Below the pieces are notes generated by a model. It saw only the letters and a list, made by a program, of their open reading frames with translations, did no database searches and was not told the DNA's origin. From contig CAIOYH010000008.1 in assembly GCA_903862465.1 (NCBI GenBank), positions 1 through 32,249 of the forward strand: DNA of 32,249 nt. Direction: 5' to 3'. Positions within the stretch are counted from its first letter, which is position 1; the number at the start of each line of letters is the position of its first letter. Below are positions 1 to 31,507 of the stretch, one piece after another. This DNA comes from an uncultured bacterium (GTDB lineage Bacteria; Bacteroidota; Bacteroidia; Bacteroidales; CAIWKO01). Both the position numbers and the translations under genes were made by a program.

Positions 1-260
1 AATAAAATAATATCGGAAGAAATAAAATAATGTCGGAAGATAAAAAATAATATCCGAAGATAAAAAATAATATCCGAAGATAAAAAATAATATCCGAAGA
101 TAAAAAATAATATCCGAAGATAAAAAATAATATCCGAAGATAAAAAATAATATCGGACGCCAAAAAATAATGTTGGACAATAAAAAATAATATCGGACAC
201 TAAAAAATAATATCGGATGCCAAAAAATAATGTCGGACGCTAAAAAATAATATCGGAAGA
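1..260. repeat. 20-bp tandem repeat array, 13 units, upstream of the 397 gene
   Basis: Thirteen consecutive 20-bp units run without a gap from the window edge, so the array may extend further left. The commonest unit is TAAAAAATAATATCCGAAGA (five identical copies, 41-140). The core AAAAAATAATRTYSGA is nearly constant, while the last four bases and the first base of the next unit vary (agat, cgcc, caat, cact, tgcc, cgct). The early and late units read TATCGGA or TGTCGGA where the middle block reads TATCCGA. The array ends 136 bp before the ATG at 397. It is AT-rich and has no open frame of interest. Bases 261-396 hold no clear gene; a weak promoter-like TAGCTTTA lies at 289-296. Confidence 0.95.
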
Positions 261-396: not shown

Positions 397-1023
397 ATGT
401 ATTTCGCTAGAGCCTTGTACGATTTTATTTCATTAACAATCGTACTATTAATCGAAAGAGGCTACTTTGTAGCTTCATGTTTAACCACAAACCCTGCGTT
501 CCCAACGCCTTTTGTGTTGGCAGCGCAAATTACCTCACTGACGGATACTTTAAAAGCCGCTTGGTTGGCTTATGAAGCGAATCCCGGAACTACCGAAAAA
601 GAAGCCCTTGATTTAGCCCACGACGCTCTGATTGAGGCTTTGATATCCGATGCCGCTTATGTAACAGGTAAAGCGGGTGGTGACCCTATTAAAATAAAAT
701 CAGGTGGCTACACTCCTTCGAAGGAAAAAAGTTCTTCTGAAAAACCGCCTTATGATGCCGAACCGGGTTCAAAACCGGGAAGCGCTAAGCTATATTATCA
801 AAAAGGAAAACATGACTTGGCCGTTGTTTGGTTAGCCTATATTGGAACCCAAGCTCCCGGAACTATAACGAATTATGTTCCATGCGCCGGCACCACTCTC
901 GATAGTTTCGAAGTTACCGGATTTACGAGTGGTGATTGGGTTAATTTTGTGGGTGCGCCCATAGCCACCAAAGGCGATGGCACATTCCATTGGACTCCTC
1001 CCTTGCTTGTGCTGATACCATAA
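397..1023 (+). CDS. Hypothetical protein with helical N-terminal half and fibronectin III-like C-terminal segment
   Basis: I cannot assign a function. The 208-residue product has a hydrophobic N-terminus (residues 1-30) without a convincing signal peptidase site. A segment with NPAFPTP at 32-38 follows, then an Ala-rich, probably helical stretch (about 40-95) and a Ser/Pro/Lys-rich linker (about 100-128). The C-terminal part (about 138-208) is probably beta and carries YIGTQAP at 148-154. From memory, this layout (FPTP helical domain, linker, fibronectin III-like end) resembles a family of small Bacteroidota proteins of unknown role. The 20-bp array lies just upstream and a hairpin terminator follows 10 bp after the stop, so it is probably monocistronic. 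The YIGxxAP motif recurs in the array-linked protein at 20408-21142 at about the same distance from the C-terminus. The start is the only upstream ATG in frame. Confidence 0.75.
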   Translation: MYFARALYDFISLTIVLLIERGYFVASCLTTNPAFPTPFVLAAQITSLTDTLKAAWLAYEANPGTTEKEALDLAHDALIEALISDAAYVTGKAGGDPIKIKSGGYTPSKEKSSSEKPPYDAEPGSKPGSAKLYYQKGKHDLAVVWLAYIGTQAPGTITNYVPCAGTTLDSFEVTGFTSGDWVNFVGAPIATKGDGTFHWTPPLLVLIP

Positions 1024-11063: not shown

Positions 11064-11081
11064 AGGATTTCGTTTTTTTTA

Positions 11082-11089
11082 CAAAAATA
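11082..11089 (-). promoter_or_regulatory. -7 element of meaB
   Basis: The minus strand reads TATTTTTG, matching TAnnTTTG, 19 bp upstream of the TTG start codon at 11063. An ATG slightly further upstream is in another frame and would stop after ten codons, which supports the TTG choice. Confidence 0.6.
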
Positions 11090-11304
11090 CATATTTTTAG
11101 AGAAAAAAGGAGCTTATGGCAAAATTTTCCGACTTTATTTTCGGAATATATTTTTTGATGAAAATATTTCAGATGTTTTTCTTGAAGATAGAAATTTCGA
11201 CTTTTTGATGTTTTGCATTTATTTTTAAAAACAAAAGATTCATTTTTATGTATAAATTAATAATGATATAGTCATAATTGATAATAATATGCTTCAATAT
11301 CATT

Positions 11305-11580
11305 ATGACATGTTCGATTTTATTTATGACAAGAATATATTTCATTTTATTTCTTGACATAAGATGTTTCATTCATACCTTAATATATTTTAATGTTGAC
11401 ATAATGTAATTTTTTAATGACATGATATATTTTATTCTTGGCATAGATTAATATTTTTATAGCATAGACTAATTTTTATATGGCATAGTATATTATATCT
11501 TTACCTTAATGTATTTATATTTCAGCATATATAAATTTATTTTCAGCATAATTAAATATATTTATGACATGATATACTTT
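11305..11580. repeat. Degenerate 21-bp tandem array, about 13 units, upstream of the 11621 gene
   Basis: Bases 11090-11620 are very AT-rich. From 11305 an imperfect repeat of the form TGACATGATATATTTTAT can be phased. The conserved C of the (G/A)CAT box falls at 11309, 11330, 11358, 11379, 11400, 11421, 11442, 11463, 11484, 11505, 11526, 11547 and 11568. That is eleven units in strict 21-bp register, plus two more across one 28-bp interval. Units vary strongly (GACAT, GGCAT, AGCAT, ACCTT), so this is an old or drifting array rather than recent copying. The last unit abuts the TATCTTTG promoter element at 11588. Bases 11090-11304 show no gene or clear element. Confidence 0.85.
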
Positions 11581-11587
11581 TTTGTAT

Positions 11588-11595
11588 TATCTTTG
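11588..11595 (+). promoter_or_regulatory. -7 element of the 11621 gene, directly after the 21-bp array
   Basis: TATCTTTG is an exact TAnnTTTG match, 25 bp before the ATG at 11621. The last repeat unit (11565-11585) occupies the -33 region, so any protein bound to the array would touch the promoter. Confidence 0.75.
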
Positions 11596-11620
11596 CAGTC
11601 TGACTATATATTATTGATTT

Positions 11621-12334
11621 ATGATAGAAACAAAGCGTATCCGACACAAATTTATGTTCTCTTATGGCGATTTAATGCAATTGGGACATCGTGCTCACAA
11701 ACTTGCCACCGATGATGCCGACGTGTTGGCTTCCTATGGCATCAACGACGCCTTTAGGGACAATTTGGACGAGAAACTTCAACAGCTGAAAGACTTTCCG
11801 GAGGACGTGGAGCAGGAATATGGCGCCGTGGCAGAGAATGAAACCAAGCTGAAACGTGCCGATGAGGTGAAGGTGGGCATTCGCACCATGATGGTGTTGG
11901 TGAAACAGGTGTATAAGGAAGGAAGTGGCAAATGGACACGCTTCGGCACCGCCGACATGAGCAAAATGAACGACTTGCAACTGATTAAATGCGGGTTTCG
12001 GGTGGTGCGTGTGGCTCAAAGTTTGTTGACCACGCTTGAACCTTTTGGCGTTACGCAAGCGATGATAGATGCCTTGGAAATTACTGTGAAAGCTTACGAC
12101 AAGGCGTATGACGACCAACAAGATGCCTTGTTGCTGCGCAAAGAATCCACCATTGACCGCATCCAACTTGCCAATGAATTGTACGGTTTAATCGCGAAGG
12201 TGTGTGACTATGGCAAAGATTATTGGTCGTCGCGCGACAGTTTTAAACATAGTCTCTATGTCATTTATGAAACGCCGCCGAGCAAAAGAGCCAAGGCGAA
12301 AAAGAAAGCGGCAGAAAAGGAACAGCCTGAATAG
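11621..12334 (+). CDS. Hypothetical helical protein downstream of a 21-bp array
   Basis: The 237-residue product has no signal peptide or membrane segment and looks almost entirely alpha-helical. Charged helices with heptad-like spacing (residues about 15-115) are followed by a central FGTADMSKMNDLQLIKCGF segment, more helices, and a lysine-rich tail, SKRAKAKKKAAEKEQPE, that could contact nucleic acid. No family with known function is recognised, although the FGxADMSKM segment is one I associate with Bacteroidota hypothetical proteins. A second ATG at 11651 is possible. The gene sits behind the 21-bp array and a textbook promoter and is followed by a hairpin terminator. Its GC content is much higher than the array before it. 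Confidence 0.8.
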   Translation: MIETKRIRHKFMFSYGDLMQLGHRAHKLATDDADVLASYGINDAFRDNLDEKLQQLKDFPEDVEQEYGAVAENETKLKRADEVKVGIRTMMVLVKQVYKEGSGKWTRFGTADMSKMNDLQLIKCGFRVVRVAQSLLTTLEPFGVTQAMIDALEITVKAYDKAYDDQQDALLLRKESTIDRIQLANELYGLIAKVCDYGKDYWSSRDSFKHSLYVIYETPPSKRAKAKKKAAEKEQPE

Positions 12335-12447: not shown

Positions 12448-12786
12448 ATGTATTTTGGCAGACAACATCCAGACTTTATAGCTACATTGAAATATTTGAA
12501 GAGTGAACAAGGAGGTAGAAAGAAACCTATTTCTAAAGTTGGATATAGACCATTGGTTAAATTTCCAGAATATATTATTTCAACAACTAGCGAACAATTG
12601 TTTCTTGATAAAGAGGTAGTATTTCCAGGAGACACAGTTGAAGCAGAAATGACGATTTTATATATTGAATATTTTCAAAATAAACTTTTCGTTGGACAGA
12701 CATTTGAGATTCGAGAGGGACAAACGCACGTCATTGGGACGGGACAAATAAAAAAAATAATTAATAAAAACCTAGAAATTAAATAA
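12448..12786 (+). CDS. Stand-alone EF-Tu C-terminal (domain 3)-like protein
   Basis: The 112-residue product corresponds to the third, beta-barrel domain of elongation factor Tu: a first strand with ATLKYLKSEQGGRKKPI (EF-Tu: A-x-V-Y-x-L-x-x-x-E-G-G-R-x-x-P), then GYRPLVKF, then the FPGDTVEAEMTI turn, and the final FEIREGQTHVIGTGQI strand, close to EF-Tu's FxIREGGRTVGxG. The GTPase domain and domain 2 are absent and there is no upstream frame for them, so this is a free domain rather than a truncated tuf. In EF-Tu this domain contacts aminoacyl-tRNA and EF-Ts. The role of the free form is unknown to me. It lies between the 11621 hypothetical gene and a protease gene, with its own promoter and terminator, and is AT-richer than both neighbours. 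Confidence 0.8.
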   Translation: MYFGRQHPDFIATLKYLKSEQGGRKKPISKVGYRPLVKFPEYIISTTSEQLFLDKEVVFPGDTVEAEMTILYIEYFQNKLFVGQTFEIREGQTHVIGTGQIKKIINKNLEIK

Positions 12787-12891: not shown

Positions 12892-13776
12892 ATGTTTGTA
12901 GAAGCCATCGAAAAAGTCGCCAATTTCACCCGCCCCGTTCATACATTGGTGCGCACCTATTCAGGTAAAAAAATTATTCCGGGTGCCGCCACCCTGTTTT
13001 TTGTCAACGAGTTGGGCTATGCCGTCACGTGCAAACATGTGGTGGATTTGATTATCGCATCCGAAGAAATGAAGAAAACCTACGGCGATTTCAGAACTGA
13101 ACGCAGCAAATTGGCTGCCGACAACCAACTGCGCAACCATCTGAAAGGCTTAGAACTGAAATATAAAATCAACGCCGACACCAACATTCAGATGCAGATT
13201 CGCTTTTTGGAATGTGTGGATTCTTTTTCGGGCATCACCTTTCATACGCATCCCAAATACGATTTGGCGATAGTGAAATTCAACGATTTCAAATCGCTGC
13301 GCTATGCCAAATATGCCGTTTTCAAGAAAAATACCGAAGAAATTCGTCAAGGAGAATATCTGTGCCGACTTGGATTTCCGTTTCCTGAGTTCACCAATTT
13401 TACGTTTAACGAACGGACGGACGAAATTGAATGGACCAACACGGGCGTGGCTTTCTCCCCACGATTTCCGTTCGAAGGTATGGTGACACGTTTTTTGGCA
13501 GATGAGCAAGGCGTCCACGGCATCGAAATGAGCACCCCGGGTTTGCGCGGACAGAGCGGCGGACCGCTGTTCAACAAAGACGGTATCGTGTATGGCATGC
13601 AATCCTCCACTAAACATCTCCACCTAGGCTTCGACATCGTTGACCTCGAAATGGTCATCAACAACAAAATAAAAACCATCTCCGACCATCCCTTCATCCA
13701 TCTCGGGCAATGCATCCACGCCAACGTCATCAAGGCTTTCCTGAGAGAAATGAAAGTTCCTTTTTATGAAGAATAA
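12892..13776 (+). CDS. Trypsin-like serine protease without a signal peptide
   Basis: The 294-residue product has the chymotrypsin-fold triad in the right order and contexts: His49 in VTCKHVVD, Asp124 in KYDLAIVKF, and Ser222 in RGQSGGPLF. The following GIVYGMQSS strand also fits. There is a charged insert at about residues 58-110 between the His and Asp strands. No signal peptide, transmembrane segment or PDZ domain is visible, so it should act in the cytoplasm, unlike DegP/HtrA enzymes. The substrate is unknown. It may be a housekeeping protease or part of a stress or defence response; nothing nearby decides this. It lies 75 bp upstream of the alcohol dehydrogenase gene on the same strand. 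Confidence 0.85.
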   Translation: MFVEAIEKVANFTRPVHTLVRTYSGKKIIPGAATLFFVNELGYAVTCKHVVDLIIASEEMKKTYGDFRTERSKLAADNQLRNHLKGLELKYKINADTNIQMQIRFLECVDSFSGITFHTHPKYDLAIVKFNDFKSLRYAKYAVFKKNTEEIRQGEYLCRLGFPFPEFTNFTFNERTDEIEWTNTGVAFSPRFPFEGMVTRFLADEQGVHGIEMSTPGLRGQSGGPLFNKDGIVYGMQSSTKHLHLGFDIVDLEMVINNKIKTISDHPFIHLGQCIHANVIKAFLREMKVPFYEE

Positions 13777-20407: not shown

Positions 20408-21142
20408 TCAGAATACAATTCCCGCACTCACAATGATACTCGGCTGTCCTAGTTCACCTTTGTTACTTTCGTAGCAAGCAAAATAGTATGCATAAAGTTT
20501 TGTAGTGCCAGAGTTATCCACTCCTTCGAAAGTGATGTGAATTTTTCCCCGTTTGGCATTGCCATACAACGCAAAAGCAGCGTTACTAGTGGGAGCCGTG
20601 GCACCAATGTAGCGAAACACTTTAACAAACTTCATGCCTTTAGGCAGTCTCTTGCTTGTGGGTGTTTCAGGGCTAACAACACTCAATTGCATTTCTCCAT
20701 AGACGTTTTTCTTAACGCTCAACATCGGTTGTAACATTTCAGTTACATCGCTCTTTTTAGTACCGCTCTTTTTAGCTAATGGTGTTCCAAAACGAATATT
20801 TGCCACATTCCAATCGTGATTGTCGCCCAATGCAGCAATTTTCAGCAACAAACGACGACCATTGACATCATAAGAAGCATATTCGCGCATTGATTTAACA
20901 GCTTGTTTCACTTGGGCACGTTGTTCAGTGGTGATGGTTTTTTTGTTTTGATAAGGTACGAGAAGTGGTTCCAAGATGTTGCGGATGGACGTAACGTACT
21001 CGCTATCTTCTTGAGTCCACAACCAGTCTTCCCATTTGTGGTGTCCTATGCCACCCGAACCTTGGCTTAATTGTAAATCATCTAAAGCAATAATATATAT
21101 TATCGCTTTAATAATGTTTTGTGGGATGTTTGTACCGTTCAT
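20408..21142 (-). CDS. Hypothetical protein downstream of a 21-bp array, fibronectin III-like C-terminus
   Basis: The 244-residue product has no signal peptide. Residues 1-105 are probably helical, with a Trp-rich segment (HHKWEDWLWTQEDSEYV, 34-50). A central NVANIRFGTPLAKKSGTKKSD stretch (about 112-132) follows. The C-terminal part (about 145-244) is beta-rich with FRYIGATAPTS (YIGATAP at 178-184) and ends in strands like AYYFACYESNKGE and PSIIVSAGIVF, similar to a fibronectin III-like domain. The YIGxxAP motif, 60-66 residues from the end, is shared with the 397-1023 product, so the two C-terminal domains are probably related while the N-termini differ. The 21-bp array begins 86 bp upstream of the ATG. 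Function is unknown. Confidence 0.78.
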   Translation of the reverse strand: MNGTNIPQNIIKAIIYIIALDDLQLSQGSGGIGHHKWEDWLWTQEDSEYVTSIRNILEPLLVPYQNKKTITTEQRAQVKQAVKSMREYASYDVNGRRLLLKIAALGDNHDWNVANIRFGTPLAKKSGTKKSDVTEMLQPMLSVKKNVYGEMQLSVVSPETPTSKRLPKGMKFVKVFRYIGATAPTSNAAFALYGNAKRGKIHITFEGVDNSGTTKLYAYYFACYESNKGELGQPSIIVSAGIVF

Positions 21143-21228: not shown

Positions 21229-21460
21229 TCGATTCAACTTTTATGTAAATCGATTCAACTTTTGTGTAAATCAATTTACATTTTATGTAAATCAGTTCAA
21301 CTTTTGTGTAAATCAATTTACATTTTATGTAAATCAGTTCAACTTTTGTGTAAATCAATTTACATTTTGTGTAAATCAATTCAACTTTTATGTAAACCTA
21401 TTTACATTTTGTGTAAATCGATTCAACTTTTGTGTAAATCAATTTACATTTTATGTAAAC
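21229..21460. repeat. 21-bp tandem array with two alternating unit types, upstream of the 20408-21142 gene
   Basis: TGTAAA recurs at 21244, 21265, 21286, 21307, 21328, 21349, 21370, 21391, 21412, 21433 and 21454, exactly every 21 bp. Units fall in two kinds that mostly alternate, giving a 42-bp super-period. Type A contains TGTAAATCAATTTACA, a 7-bp inverted repeat with a 2-bp spacer. Type B reads TGTAAATCAGTTCAACTTTT, which destroys the palindrome. Between A and the next unit, ATTTACATTTTATGTAAAT forms a second, 8-bp inverted repeat. The array is upstream of the minus-strand gene at 20408-21142. Because 21 is a multiple of 3 it creates repetitive open frames on both strands that are not genes. 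Bases 21461-21645 hold no gene. Confidence 0.95.
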
Positions 21461-21645
21461 TCACTTTGCGTTTTTCAGCCTCCATTCATCATCATTTGCA
21501 AGGGGCAAATTTTTGAGGAACCGCTACTGAAATTTGAACGATACAAAAGTACTACCATTTTAGAGGCTAATCATTGTACTTTTTGCGGAGATAATTGTAC
21601 TTTTTGCGGGAATAATGAGGTTTTTTTACAGAAATGTAGCCCGGT

Positions 21646-22194
21646 TTATGTGATTTGAGTACTTTGACGATATTCTTCGGGTGTCATTCCCGTCTTAAGC
21701 TTAAATTGTTTACAGAAAAAGTCTGAGCCTGAATAATGCAATGCATCTGCAATTTCTTCAATACTCATGGTGGTGTTTCTCAACAATTCTTTGGCTCGTT
21801 CTATCGTATAACGGATACAATACTCACTCACCGATTTGCCCGTGTTATCTTTAAAATAATCTCTGATGGTGGAGTACTCCTTACTCAATTTGGCTGCCAA
21901 AAACACAGAACGTATTGGATCCGAATTTTTACGTTCTCTGTGCAACCATTGATGCAGCACACTATAAATTTTGTCAAGCGACAAAGGCTCACTATTATCA
22001 ATCAGAACAAACATACATGCTGCTAAAGCTTGGTTGAGTTCCTCCATCTCCGCTTTGCTGATCTTTTGAAAAAGAAATATTTCGCCATGTTCATTGATTT
22101 CATATTGCAGTCTCCTCTTTTCTAGTTCGGACCTCAAACACCTATACGTACAACAATAGCGCATACGTTCTATTTTAATGGCTTTCTCTTTCAT
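21646..22194 (-). CDS. AraC-family regulator with Cys-bearing N-terminal domain
   Basis: I choose the ATG at 22194 (182 residues); the longer frame begins with TTG at 22218. The C-terminal 90 residues are an AraC-type double helix-turn-helix: YTIERAKELLRNTTMSIEEIADALHYSG, then DFFCKQFKLKTGMTPEEYR. The N-terminal 80 residues, IERMRYCCTYRCL...LEKRRLQYEINEHGEIFL, resemble the small alpha/beta domain fused to AraC helices in a Bacteroidota subfamily, where the Cys-rich MxCxxC-like loop is reminiscent of heavy-metal-associated domains. A metal or redox ligand is possible. No metal transporter is nearby. It is divergent from the M48 peptidase gene and lies upstream of the 21-bp array on the same strand. 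Confidence 0.85.
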   Translation of the reverse strand: MKEKAIKIERMRYCCTYRCLRSELEKRRLQYEINEHGEIFLFQKISKAEMEELNQALAACMFVLIDNSEPLSLDKIYSVLHQWLHRERKNSDPIRSVFLAAKLSKEYSTIRDYFKDNTGKSVSEYCIRYTIERAKELLRNTTMSIEEIADALHYSGSDFFCKQFKLKTGMTPEEYRQSTQIT

Positions 22195-22263
22195 AATTTT
22201 GCAATTAGGGTTAAACAATCAGAACAAATTTTATGTCAAGCGTTTTACATTTCTTTTTAGGTA

Positions 22264-24687: not shown

Positions 24688-25998
24688 CTATTTCAATCCG
24701 AATTCTTTTTTGATGGTGTCAACATAATCGAGTTGTTCCCAAGCAAAAAACGCTACTTCTTTAAAATTCTTTTCTTTGCCGCCCACTTTTTTGGTTTTGG
24801 TGGTAGCGTCTGTATAATACACTTCAACTTCTTTTTTTACATAATCTCTGCCGAAATGTCCGTAGCTTGCCGTAGCATGAAAGATAGGATTTTTCAAACC
24901 AAAGCGTTTCACGATAGCATACGGACGCATATCGAAAATAGCATTGATGCGTTGTGCAATTTGTCCGTCCGAAAGGATGTTGCCTTTAGCGTCTTTCACT
25001 TTGGCAGTTCCGTAGGTGTTTACATATAAACCCACCGGTTGTGCCACGCCAATAGCATACGCCACTTGTATCAACACCTCGTCTGCAACTCCGGCAGCCA
25101 CTAAATTCTTAGCAATATGACGTGCTGCGTAAGCCGCAGAACGATCCACTTTCGAGGAATCTTTTCCCGAAAAAGCACCACCACCGTGAGCACCTTTGCC
25201 GCCATAGGTATCCACAATTATCTTACGTCCGGTCAATCCTGTGTCGCCATGTGGTCCACCAATCACGAATTTGCCTGTTGGATTCACAAACAATTTGAAT
25301 TTTCCTTGCAACATGGTTTTCACTTCTTTAGACAAAGTCTTTAAAGCCGCCACGCGAGGAATCAACACTTCGAGGACATCCTTTTTAATGATATCCAACA
25401 TTTTTTTCTCGGCATCGAAATCATCATGTTGTGTAGAAATCACAATGGTGTCAATATGTTCCGCTTTACCATTGTCGTTATAAGCAACCGTTACTTGCGA
25501 TTTGGCATCCGGGCGCAGATAGGTCATTTGTTTTCCTTCGCGACGAATTTCAGCCAACTCTTGCAACAACACATGCGCCAACTCTATCGGCATCGGCATA
25601 TAATTTTCCATCTCTCTGCAAGCATAGCCAAACATCATACCTTGGTCGCCTGCGCCTTGATCTTCTTCTTTTTTGCGTTCCACACCTTGGTTGATGTCGC
25701 TCGATTGTTCATGTATCGTCGAAATCACACCGCATGAATCGGCATCAAAACGATATTCGGCTTTTGTATAGCCTATTTTGCGGATAGCTTCGCGTGCCAC
25801 ACGTTGCACATCCACATAACCATTGGTTTTCACTTCACCGCTACAAACGGTCAAACCTGTTGTTACTAATGTTTCGCAAGCTACTTTCGACTCAGGGTCG
25901 CAACGTAAAAACTCGTCTAATAATGCGTCAGAAATTTGATCGGCTACTTTGTCTGGATGACCTTCAGAAACTGATTCTGATGTAAATAAATATCCCAT
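24688..25998 (-). CDS. metK: S-adenosylmethionine synthetase
   Basis: I choose the ATG at 25998 (436 residues, [20 protein letters not shown]); the longer frame to 26097 reads through the leader RNA. MetK makes S-adenosylmethionine from methionine and ATP in the cytoplasm. Family signatures are present in order: [13 protein letters not shown] at the start, [13 protein letters not shown] (the hexapeptide motif region), and [19 protein letters not shown] (the P-loop-like motif). The length fits Bacteroidota MetK, which is longer than the E. coli enzyme. It has its own promoter at 26128 just after the gldA stop, a 120-nt structured leader, and a strong terminator. Confidence 0.97.
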
Positions 25999-26029
25999 AA
26001 TGTAAATGTTTTTTAATGAATAAATGTTT

Positions 26030-26112
26030 TGTGGAGCTTGCTGATTGAATCGCAGGAAAGAGTTTGTTTTAGCATTTTTTCCTGTGGTTGCAATCAATCA
26101 AATTTTTCCACA
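26030..26112 (-). ncRNA. Structured metK leader, three nested helices (candidate SAM-responsive RNA)
   Basis: On the minus strand, helix P1 pairs TGTGGA (26112-26107) with TCCACA (26035-26030). P2 pairs TGATTGA (26100-26094) with TCAATCA (26048-26042). P3 pairs CAGGAAA (26084-26078) with TTTCCTG (26059-26053). All are perfect. The P2/P3 internal loop is TTGCAACCA opposite CGAT; the P3 loop is 18 nt and contains ATGCTAAAAC. GCAACC and GCTAA are also core elements of SAM-I riboswitches, but the rest of the SAM-I aptamer is absent. The structure ends about 31 nt before the metK ATG, where a fold could control translation. The helices are seen; the sensing role is inference. Confidence 0.5.
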
Positions 26113-26135
26113 CCAATATTGGTGATGCAAAAGTA
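26111..26135 (-). promoter_or_regulatory. metK promoter with palindrome at the transcription start
   Basis: The minus strand reads TACTTTTG (26128-26135), matching TAnnTTTG. Immediately downstream lies a perfect 14-bp palindrome, CACCAATATTGGTG (26111-26124), at the expected transcription start; it could be an operator or a 5' hairpin. Confidence 0.6.
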
Positions 26136-31266: not shown

Positions 31267-31290
31267 TCGCACCACCTTATGGTGGAAGAT

Positions 31291-31507
31291 CCAAATACCA
31301 AGCTCCAAATTCCAAATACCAAGAGGAAAATTCCAAATACCAAGCTCCAAATCCCAAATTCCAAGGAGGAAAAGGAGCGGGATAATTGGATAGGGATGTC
31401 TATAAAATAGAAAGCGATTTGTATTTCTTTGAAGAAAAACATTGTGTTAGCGCCCTTGGAATTTGGAGCTTGGAATTTGGATCTTGGGTCTTAAACCTTG
31501 GATTATG
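31291..31507. repeat. Inverted cluster of short 'CCAAATACCAAG' repeats
   Basis: The gap 31267-31560 is filled by low-complexity repeats: CCAAATACCAAGCTCCAAAT-like text at 31291-31366 and its inverse at 31454-31507. CCAAGCTCCAAATTCCAA (31298-31315) and TTGGAATTTGGAGCTTGG (31456-31473) are perfect 18-nt inverted copies about 140 bp apart, able to form a large hairpin. The sequence is a dispersed intergenic repeat type; the open frames across it are not genes. Confidence 0.8.

Follow-up and report, generated by a model that had tools for sequence, protein, structure and literature searches.

The window analysed here is a stretch of 32,249 nucleotides (contig CAIOYH010000008.1 of assembly GCA_903862465.1) from an uncultured member of the Bacteroidales, and its main subject is ‘array 2’, a tandem array of 21-base-pair (bp) units situated upstream of a gene that encodes a protein of 237 amino acids (aa). 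We refer to this protein and its homologues as family alpha. The features of the locus are:

11304..11357, forward strand: two extra upstream TATGACA units, 21 bp apart and displaced by 7 bp from the register of the 11 units that follow
11358..11588, forward strand: array 2 proper, 11 units at an exact 21-bp step, with the consensus CATAATATATTTTATTTTTAG and the C of the box in phase in 11/11 units
11588..11595, forward strand: TATCTTTG, a -7 element of the Bacteroidota type (TAnnTTTG), immediately after the last unit
11621..12334, forward strand: family alpha gene, 237 aa, all-helical, with a Lys-rich C-terminal tail and no Pfam match

Array 2 and the family alpha protein

An earlier reading of the letters alone (the sequence-only reading) had claimed that the C of a GCAT/ACAT box recurs at exact 21-bp steps in eleven successive units. 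A C does occupy 11/11 of these positions (11358, 11379, 11400 ... 11568), in the context ACAT or GCAT in nine units and CCTT in the two at 11379 and 11505, within a region (11300-11588) of which C makes up 9%. Counted over 14 unit-lengths (11295-11588), the phase of the box holds 12 Cs and each remaining phase holds 0-3. The terminal unit (11568-11588), which had been said to meet the promoter, abuts TATCTTTG at 11588-11595; TAnnTTTG is the consensus of the Bacteroidota -7 element, and it is also located 24-52 bp upstream of the start codon in many other family alpha members. The interval to which the phasing had been assigned (11305-12334) was too wide: it contains the strict array at 11358-11588, but it also spans the entire downstream gene.

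Autocorrelation, which had been proposed as a check, is prominent in 11300-11580, with values of 0.57, 0.55 and 0.54 at lags 21, 42 and 63 compared with approximately 0.355 in dinucleotide shuffles (z 7.2, 6.7 and 5.9, respectively), and none of 1000 such shuffles matched the array at any lag up to and including 70. The lag-21 value is 0.60 in 11340-11580, and the signal is weak in 11064-11300 (z 2.1). Lag 21 is also the best lag within the gene (11621-12334; 0.317 vs 0.254, z 3.9), as expected from the heptads of long helices, which are a matter separate from the array. The two TATGACA units have their Cs at 11309 and 11330, 21 bp apart; because the step from 11330 to 11358 is 28 bp, the register shifts by 7 and the strict register comprises the 11 units only. 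Tandem Repeats Finder reports a period of 27 at 11304..11357. Elsewhere in its own genome, array 2 has only two matches (26 and 30 bp), neither of them extended.

The AlphaFold2 model of the window protein (mean predicted local distance difference test [pLDDT] score 86.4) is all-helical, with predicted helices at residues 15-31, 43-58, 62-94, 118-134, 136-142 and 146-202, the last being 57 residues long. The nearest named model to family alpha is PQLLE_fam (NF052641), against which the window protein scores 23.5 bits, below the cut-off of 80, and eight further members score 0 to 27.5 bits. Best E values were 0.14 and 0.099 in Foldseek searches of PDB and BFVD, 0.011 in a PDB sequence search, and 0.019 when three proteins were scanned with PHROGs. 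The top VIA-align match is LemA (Z 8.6), followed by TorS/McpS-like bundles; judging from these models, fold resemblance among long-helix proteins may reflect a common arrangement only. Roles as viral cargo, as plasmid or phage cargo, and in defence were each considered and rejected: no relative was confirmed in IMG/VR (searched with alignment A1), the one Chryseobacterium member examined (L103) had no match in plasmid and phage collections, and PADLOC returned only weak matches for 19 members (best E 0.018).

Arrays and gene families across Bacteroidota

Family alpha was found at E≤0.001 in 6/59 genomes searched, the window’s own included (17 matches in the own genome, 14 in G003 of the same genus, and 2-4 each in G013, G020, G042 and G058), and a scan of named genomes yielded 50 Bacteroidota loci, including loci of Chryseobacterium, Epilithonimonas, Kaistella, Flavobacterium, Sunxiuqinia, Marinifilum and Chitinophagaceae. 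With an array called at z≥5 at lag 21 within 700 bp upstream, 58/60 loci have one (9/10 own-genome members, 3/3 in G042 and 46/47 named loci), which is a count of loci and not of independent events because many are related (e.g. Chryseobacterium orthologues, and the eight of the 47 named loci that belong to a single metagenome bin, CAIOJS01). Among control windows from the same named loci, 2/295 have an array. Six loci with less than 180 bp upstream (L011, L029, L033, L036, L065 and L110) and L072, a duplicate of L006, are omitted from the count. The arrays hold 6 to 16 units. A second draw of 395 genomes across the phylum, of which 21 (own included) carry family alpha, gave 30 loci fetched out of a longer match list; the best period is 21 or 42 in 15/18 unmasked strong matches with a fetched locus (z 4.9-18.3; L179 and L196, masked with N, are excluded) and in 5/8 weak matches. 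Among 303 open reading frames (ORFs) around 91 loci, no neighbouring family is present in more than eight loci, the largest groups being Chryseobacterium-type synteny, and the module of array and gene therefore looks self-contained.

Two further gene families in the window, beta and gamma, are likewise preceded by arrays:

1..260, forward strand: 20-bp array, 12.9 copies, 89% matches, upstream of the beta gene; the contig starts inside it
397..1023, forward strand: family beta gene, 208 aa, no Pfam match
20408..21142, reverse strand: family gamma gene, 244 aa; DUF3314 at 17.7 bits, under the cut-off of 25
21232..21459, reverse strand: 21/42-bp array with a 42-bp unit, 93% matches, upstream of the gamma gene

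The array upstream of gamma consists of alternating TTTACATTTTATGTAAATC-like units with a 42-bp period. Among beta and gamma relatives, which were drawn from the 59 genomes (own included), arrays accompany 17/20 beta loci, with a period of 20 or 40 in six and of 21 or 42 in eleven (the misses are L227, with its start not resolved, L235 and L236), and a period of 21 or 42 is found at 11/15 gamma loci (the misses are L250 and, with the starts of their genes not resolved, L253, L256 and L259). One clade (support 100/99), that of the window’s beta gene, comprises the six beta loci with the 20-bp step; it extends across two families of genomes, and the window’s own genome also carries beta members with a period of 21. 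Four beta members with 68-85% protein identity have an identical period and mostly unrelated consensus units (p 0.03 in one of the six pairs); the period is thus passed on, while the sequence can be replaced. Two other repeats were noted in connection with these loci: the repeat sequence of 1-260 recurs, reversed, on another contig (L059:1744-2199), and a short 21-bp repeat at 21558-21616 (2.3-2.8 copies, with TTTTTGCGGA) is located near a minus-strand ORF (21646-22218).

Upstream arrays of 21, 42 or 41 bp are also found with some members of PQLLE_fam and DUF6261 (PF19775), both of which are helical families of 210-250 aa. In the PQLLE_fam search, for which 25 loci were fetched out of a longer match list, three matches exceed the cut-off: L201 has a 21-bp array (z 6.2), L210 has a 42-bp array and L202 has none, with gene starts uncertain in both L202 and L210. 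Five DUF6261 loci have best periods of 42, 42, 41, 41 and 41, with a weak signal at two (z 4.6 and 3.8). The DUF6261 model (mean pLDDT 83.2; helices 13-28, 40-59, 67-88, 118-132, 135-144 and 147-202) is near the layout of the window protein, which has no match to DUF6261 in Pfam; a profile-profile comparison of family alpha with DUF6261 (8-row alignment) was not significant (approximately 1% probability) and did not confirm homology. In the literature covered, judged by titles and abstract openings and with most subscription papers and preprints outside its scope, nothing on arrays appears under the names PQLLE_fam or DUF6261, and the association of arrays with genes was not found; the sole DUF6261 match there concerns Streptococcus oralis. 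Array 2 is one member of a class of array-plus-gene modules, far wider than the window, in which the step is specific to the clade (21 bp in most, 20 in one clade and 41-42 in DUF6261).

The same periods recur when genomes are surveyed by array. In 400 kilobases (kb) of Chryseobacterium edaphi, taken in evenly spaced stretches, there are six mostly intergenic arrays with a period of 21, 41 or 42 (z>5.5): one is upstream of an alpha gene, two are upstream of DUF6261 genes, and a fourth is downstream of a gene whose homologue in the window’s genome also adjoins arrays; the remaining two are unassigned. In the window’s genome, arrays of approximately 20-21 and 41-43 bp also adjoin genes outside families alpha, beta and gamma, namely several other small-protein families and ordinary genes, one of which we take to be methionine sulfoxide reductase-like. 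Additional sightings include a 241-aa family shared by Chryseobacterium and the own genome (L129:12474-13199 and L045:15800-16525, blastp 1e-23), with arrays that flank the gene on both sides in L045 but are downstream of it in L129, and a distant pair of genes (L055:13645-14604 and L058:7538-8515, blastp 9e-5) located downstream of 21- and 20-bp arrays, one member of the pair having a CarboxypepD_reg-like C-terminus below the cut-off of that model.

Conserved spacing and its possible readers

The sequence-only reading had suggested that spacing itself is under selection and that insertions and deletions be checked for multiples of 21. We compared 16 hand-chosen pairs of close relatives (some sharing members and some being paralogues; array identity 65-96%), with the array interval set in one partner only and the other free to gap. 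The arrays (2,783 aligned columns) contain, besides one gap of -7, four that measure exactly 21 and three pairs that cancel out (-1/+1 twice and -3/+3 once), compared with 179 gaps of many sizes in the flanks (5,723 columns), which indicates that spacing is constrained; the comparison is conservative because some of the flank is coding. Among the six pairs from the window’s own genus, four have no gap inside the array. Selection on array spacing is supported by this comparison, by the recurrence of the spacing across the phylum, and by the retention of the period where beta units diverge, and the expectation of multiples of 21 held apart from the self-cancelling pairs and the single -7 gap. 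Where the 21-bp register was seen to be broken without cancellation, in L090/L091 and in the window at 11330-11358, the displacement is 7 bp, one third of a unit.

The unit sequence is less constant. A fit of 53 family alpha arrays in 29 clusters (omitting L018, L037, L081, L085, L086, L089 and L097) has a shared directional core, T-n-C-G-n-A, with a score of 1.385 compared with 1.080 (standard deviation 0.032, maximum 1.160) in 60 column-permuted sets and 1.252 (standard deviation 0.045, maximum 1.351) in 60 orientation-randomised sets. At equal protein identity, arrays are no more alike within a genome than between genomes, which argues against a single genome-wide sequence-specific factor. 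One family motif shared per genome was looked for and not found, and a coding role for the arrays was rejected (a stop-free frame in 39/60 vs 37.8 expected from column-permuted arrays).

We tentatively suggest, as something short of probable, that array 2 and its gene form a module of which the array is the cis-acting half, and that a cooperative protein binds the array and thereby controls the downstream promoter. Such a protein would be arranged side by side on the array, with one protomer or pair per two turns and on one face of the helix, and readout would depend mainly on spacing and a weak directional core (roughly T-n-C-G-n-A in alpha), leaving the remaining letters free to drift or be replaced. 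The arrays are located upstream of a promoter-like element, which the occupied array would control. The binder would most economically be the module’s own product, or something inherited with the module, because the period goes with the clade of the protein rather than with the genome. From these patterns we infer protein binding, transcriptional regulation and the gene product as candidate binder. A bolder version, possible though on the unlikely side, is that the helical protein of the module (or a co-inherited factor) builds, renews or reads the array in unvarying steps of two or four turns, largely independently of sequence, with the clade setting the step (21, 20 or 41-42 bp, as above) and the unit being replaced repeatedly.

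Several observations weigh against the proposed module of array, gene and cooperative binder. Family alpha members are mostly acidic (median core isoelectric point 4.9 in 47 named and 5.8 in 14 own-genome members), which does not favour direct DNA binding, and the predicted fold contains no recognised DNA-binding domain; a basic tail is present in several own-genome members. The distance from core to start codon is variable and not helically phased (modulo 10.5, p 0.40 and 0.70), nor is that from core to TAnnTTTG (p 0.057). Similar units are retained in 4/10 gamma pairs, and sequence has thus not been replaced in every case. Strict spacing is breached by the 7-bp offset within the window (11330-11358) and by the -7 gap inside the arrays of the compared pairs. 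Arrays were found with 0/9 distant homologues in G013, G058 and G020, they are lacking at L037 and L089 in the first set and at L174, L175 and L195 in the second draw, and, of 35 arrays at z>6 in 276 kb of the own genome, only one is by family alpha.

Some of these points would suit a separate transcription factor, encoded elsewhere, that binds the arrays and has the downstream proteins as mere targets; AraC-type and PhoB/OmpR-type proteins are readers of direct repeats. A core that is directional and common across the phylum, acidic gene products with no recognised DNA-binding domain, and arrays placed upstream of a promoter-like element all favour such a factor. We nevertheless consider it unlikely, since paralogues that share a genome have units no more similar than those of different genomes, the period tracks the protein clade even inside one genome, and no regulator gene is recurrent among the neighbours (distant co-occurring regulators were not searched). 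A guide-like or antitoxin-like RNA, repetitive but unstructured, that is transcribed from the array and works on the protein or together with it would account for self-contained modules with module-specific units and for units that are replaceable while the step is kept. It is very doubtful in view of the promoter-like element behind the array, the lack of another extended match to the window array in its genome, and the rejection of two related candidates: RNA hairpins (the two strands have mean folding z of 0.30 and 0.13, which is no excess, and on each of them 1/60 arrays has z below -2) and promoters within the arrays (TAnnTTTG is not enriched, with 3 and 3 occurrences vs 7.8 and 4.4 expected).

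Neutral tandem repeats that originate by slippage and drift without selection are highly improbable: the own genome does have tandem arrays of many kinds and periods, also beside unrelated genes, but gaps accumulate freely in flanks and not in arrays, the association of arrays with the families is anything but random, and clades inherit the period and not the sequence. Scarcely credible, finally, is intrinsic DNA curvature, which the sequence-only reading had offered in the form of DNA bends and which would suit both a step of two helical turns and the AT-richness of the window array. Predicted curvature (from wedge parameters) does not exceed that of column-permuted versions of the 60 arrays (mean z 0.22, standard error 0.13; p<0.05 in 8%), nor does the 10.5-bp AA/TT signal (mean z -0.02), so intrinsic bends, for which a curvature check had been proposed, are not supported; GC-rich arrays also exist (e.g. 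L071).

Taken as phased elements, the arrays point to a system, not described so far, that measures DNA for regulation or maintenance. A cis element with inherited spacing but replaced sequence is rarely so clear, and a single common feature here links several unexplained families (PQLLE-like, DUF6261, beta and gamma), provides a simple handle for finding further such families, and makes concrete the questions of which protein measures two turns and what the helical proteins do.

Remaining features and comparison with known systems

Elsewhere in the window, a 112-aa ORF (12448-12786) that corresponds to the elongation factor Tu C-terminal domain alone (E 6e-8) is followed by a trypsin-like peptidase ORF (12892-13776); a SAM-II riboswitch on the minus strand (26059-26117; 64.4 bits, gathering threshold 44) is upstream of a minus-strand ORF (24688-26097); 7-bp based repeats (TCCAAAT/CTTGGAA) with 21- and 42-bp steps are located between ORFs at 31290-31373 and 31455-31487; and a 104-bp tandem repeat (2.5 copies, 96%) occupies the contig end (31989-32249).

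Type III toxin-antitoxin systems (ToxIN) have a repeat array just upstream of a protein gene, and the modules described here share that arrangement. They differ in that no RNA structure is predicted, i.e. the 60 arrays have no folding excess, in the promoter-like element between array and gene, and in the absence of a toxin-family match. The contiguous, degenerate units without spacers are not those of clustered regularly interspaced short palindromic repeats (CRISPR), and no neighbour family recurs at array loci (neighbours were not scanned with cas models). A DNA curvature element is likewise a poor comparison, given that curvature is not above the composition- and period-matched control. 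Operators of the AraC and PhoB types are a further comparison: AraC-type I1-I2 spacing is 21 bp, PhoB boxes are direct repeats, and both, like the present arrays, are helix-phased direct repeats upstream of a promoter. Such operators have a few units, however, compared with 6 to 16 here, where in addition spacing is kept while sequence changes.

The iterons of plasmids (e.g. R6K, RK2, P1 and F) are direct repeats of approximately two helical turns near a gene. The present arrays resemble them in having several tandem direct repeats, within the iteron range of approximately 17-22 bp and in helical phase, with an asymmetric unit and a position upstream of a gene. They differ in their gene product, which is all-helical, mostly acidic and without a match to any replication initiator model of Pfam or NCBIfam, and the predicted structure of which has a layout other than that of a Rep initiator with winged-helix domains; in their genomic setting, as no plasmid relative of one Chryseobacterium member was found and members are located on contigs of up to 1.7 megabases; and in a unit sequence that is not conserved among relatives. 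By analogy, we suggest iteron-type side-by-side binding as a candidate for how the arrays may work.
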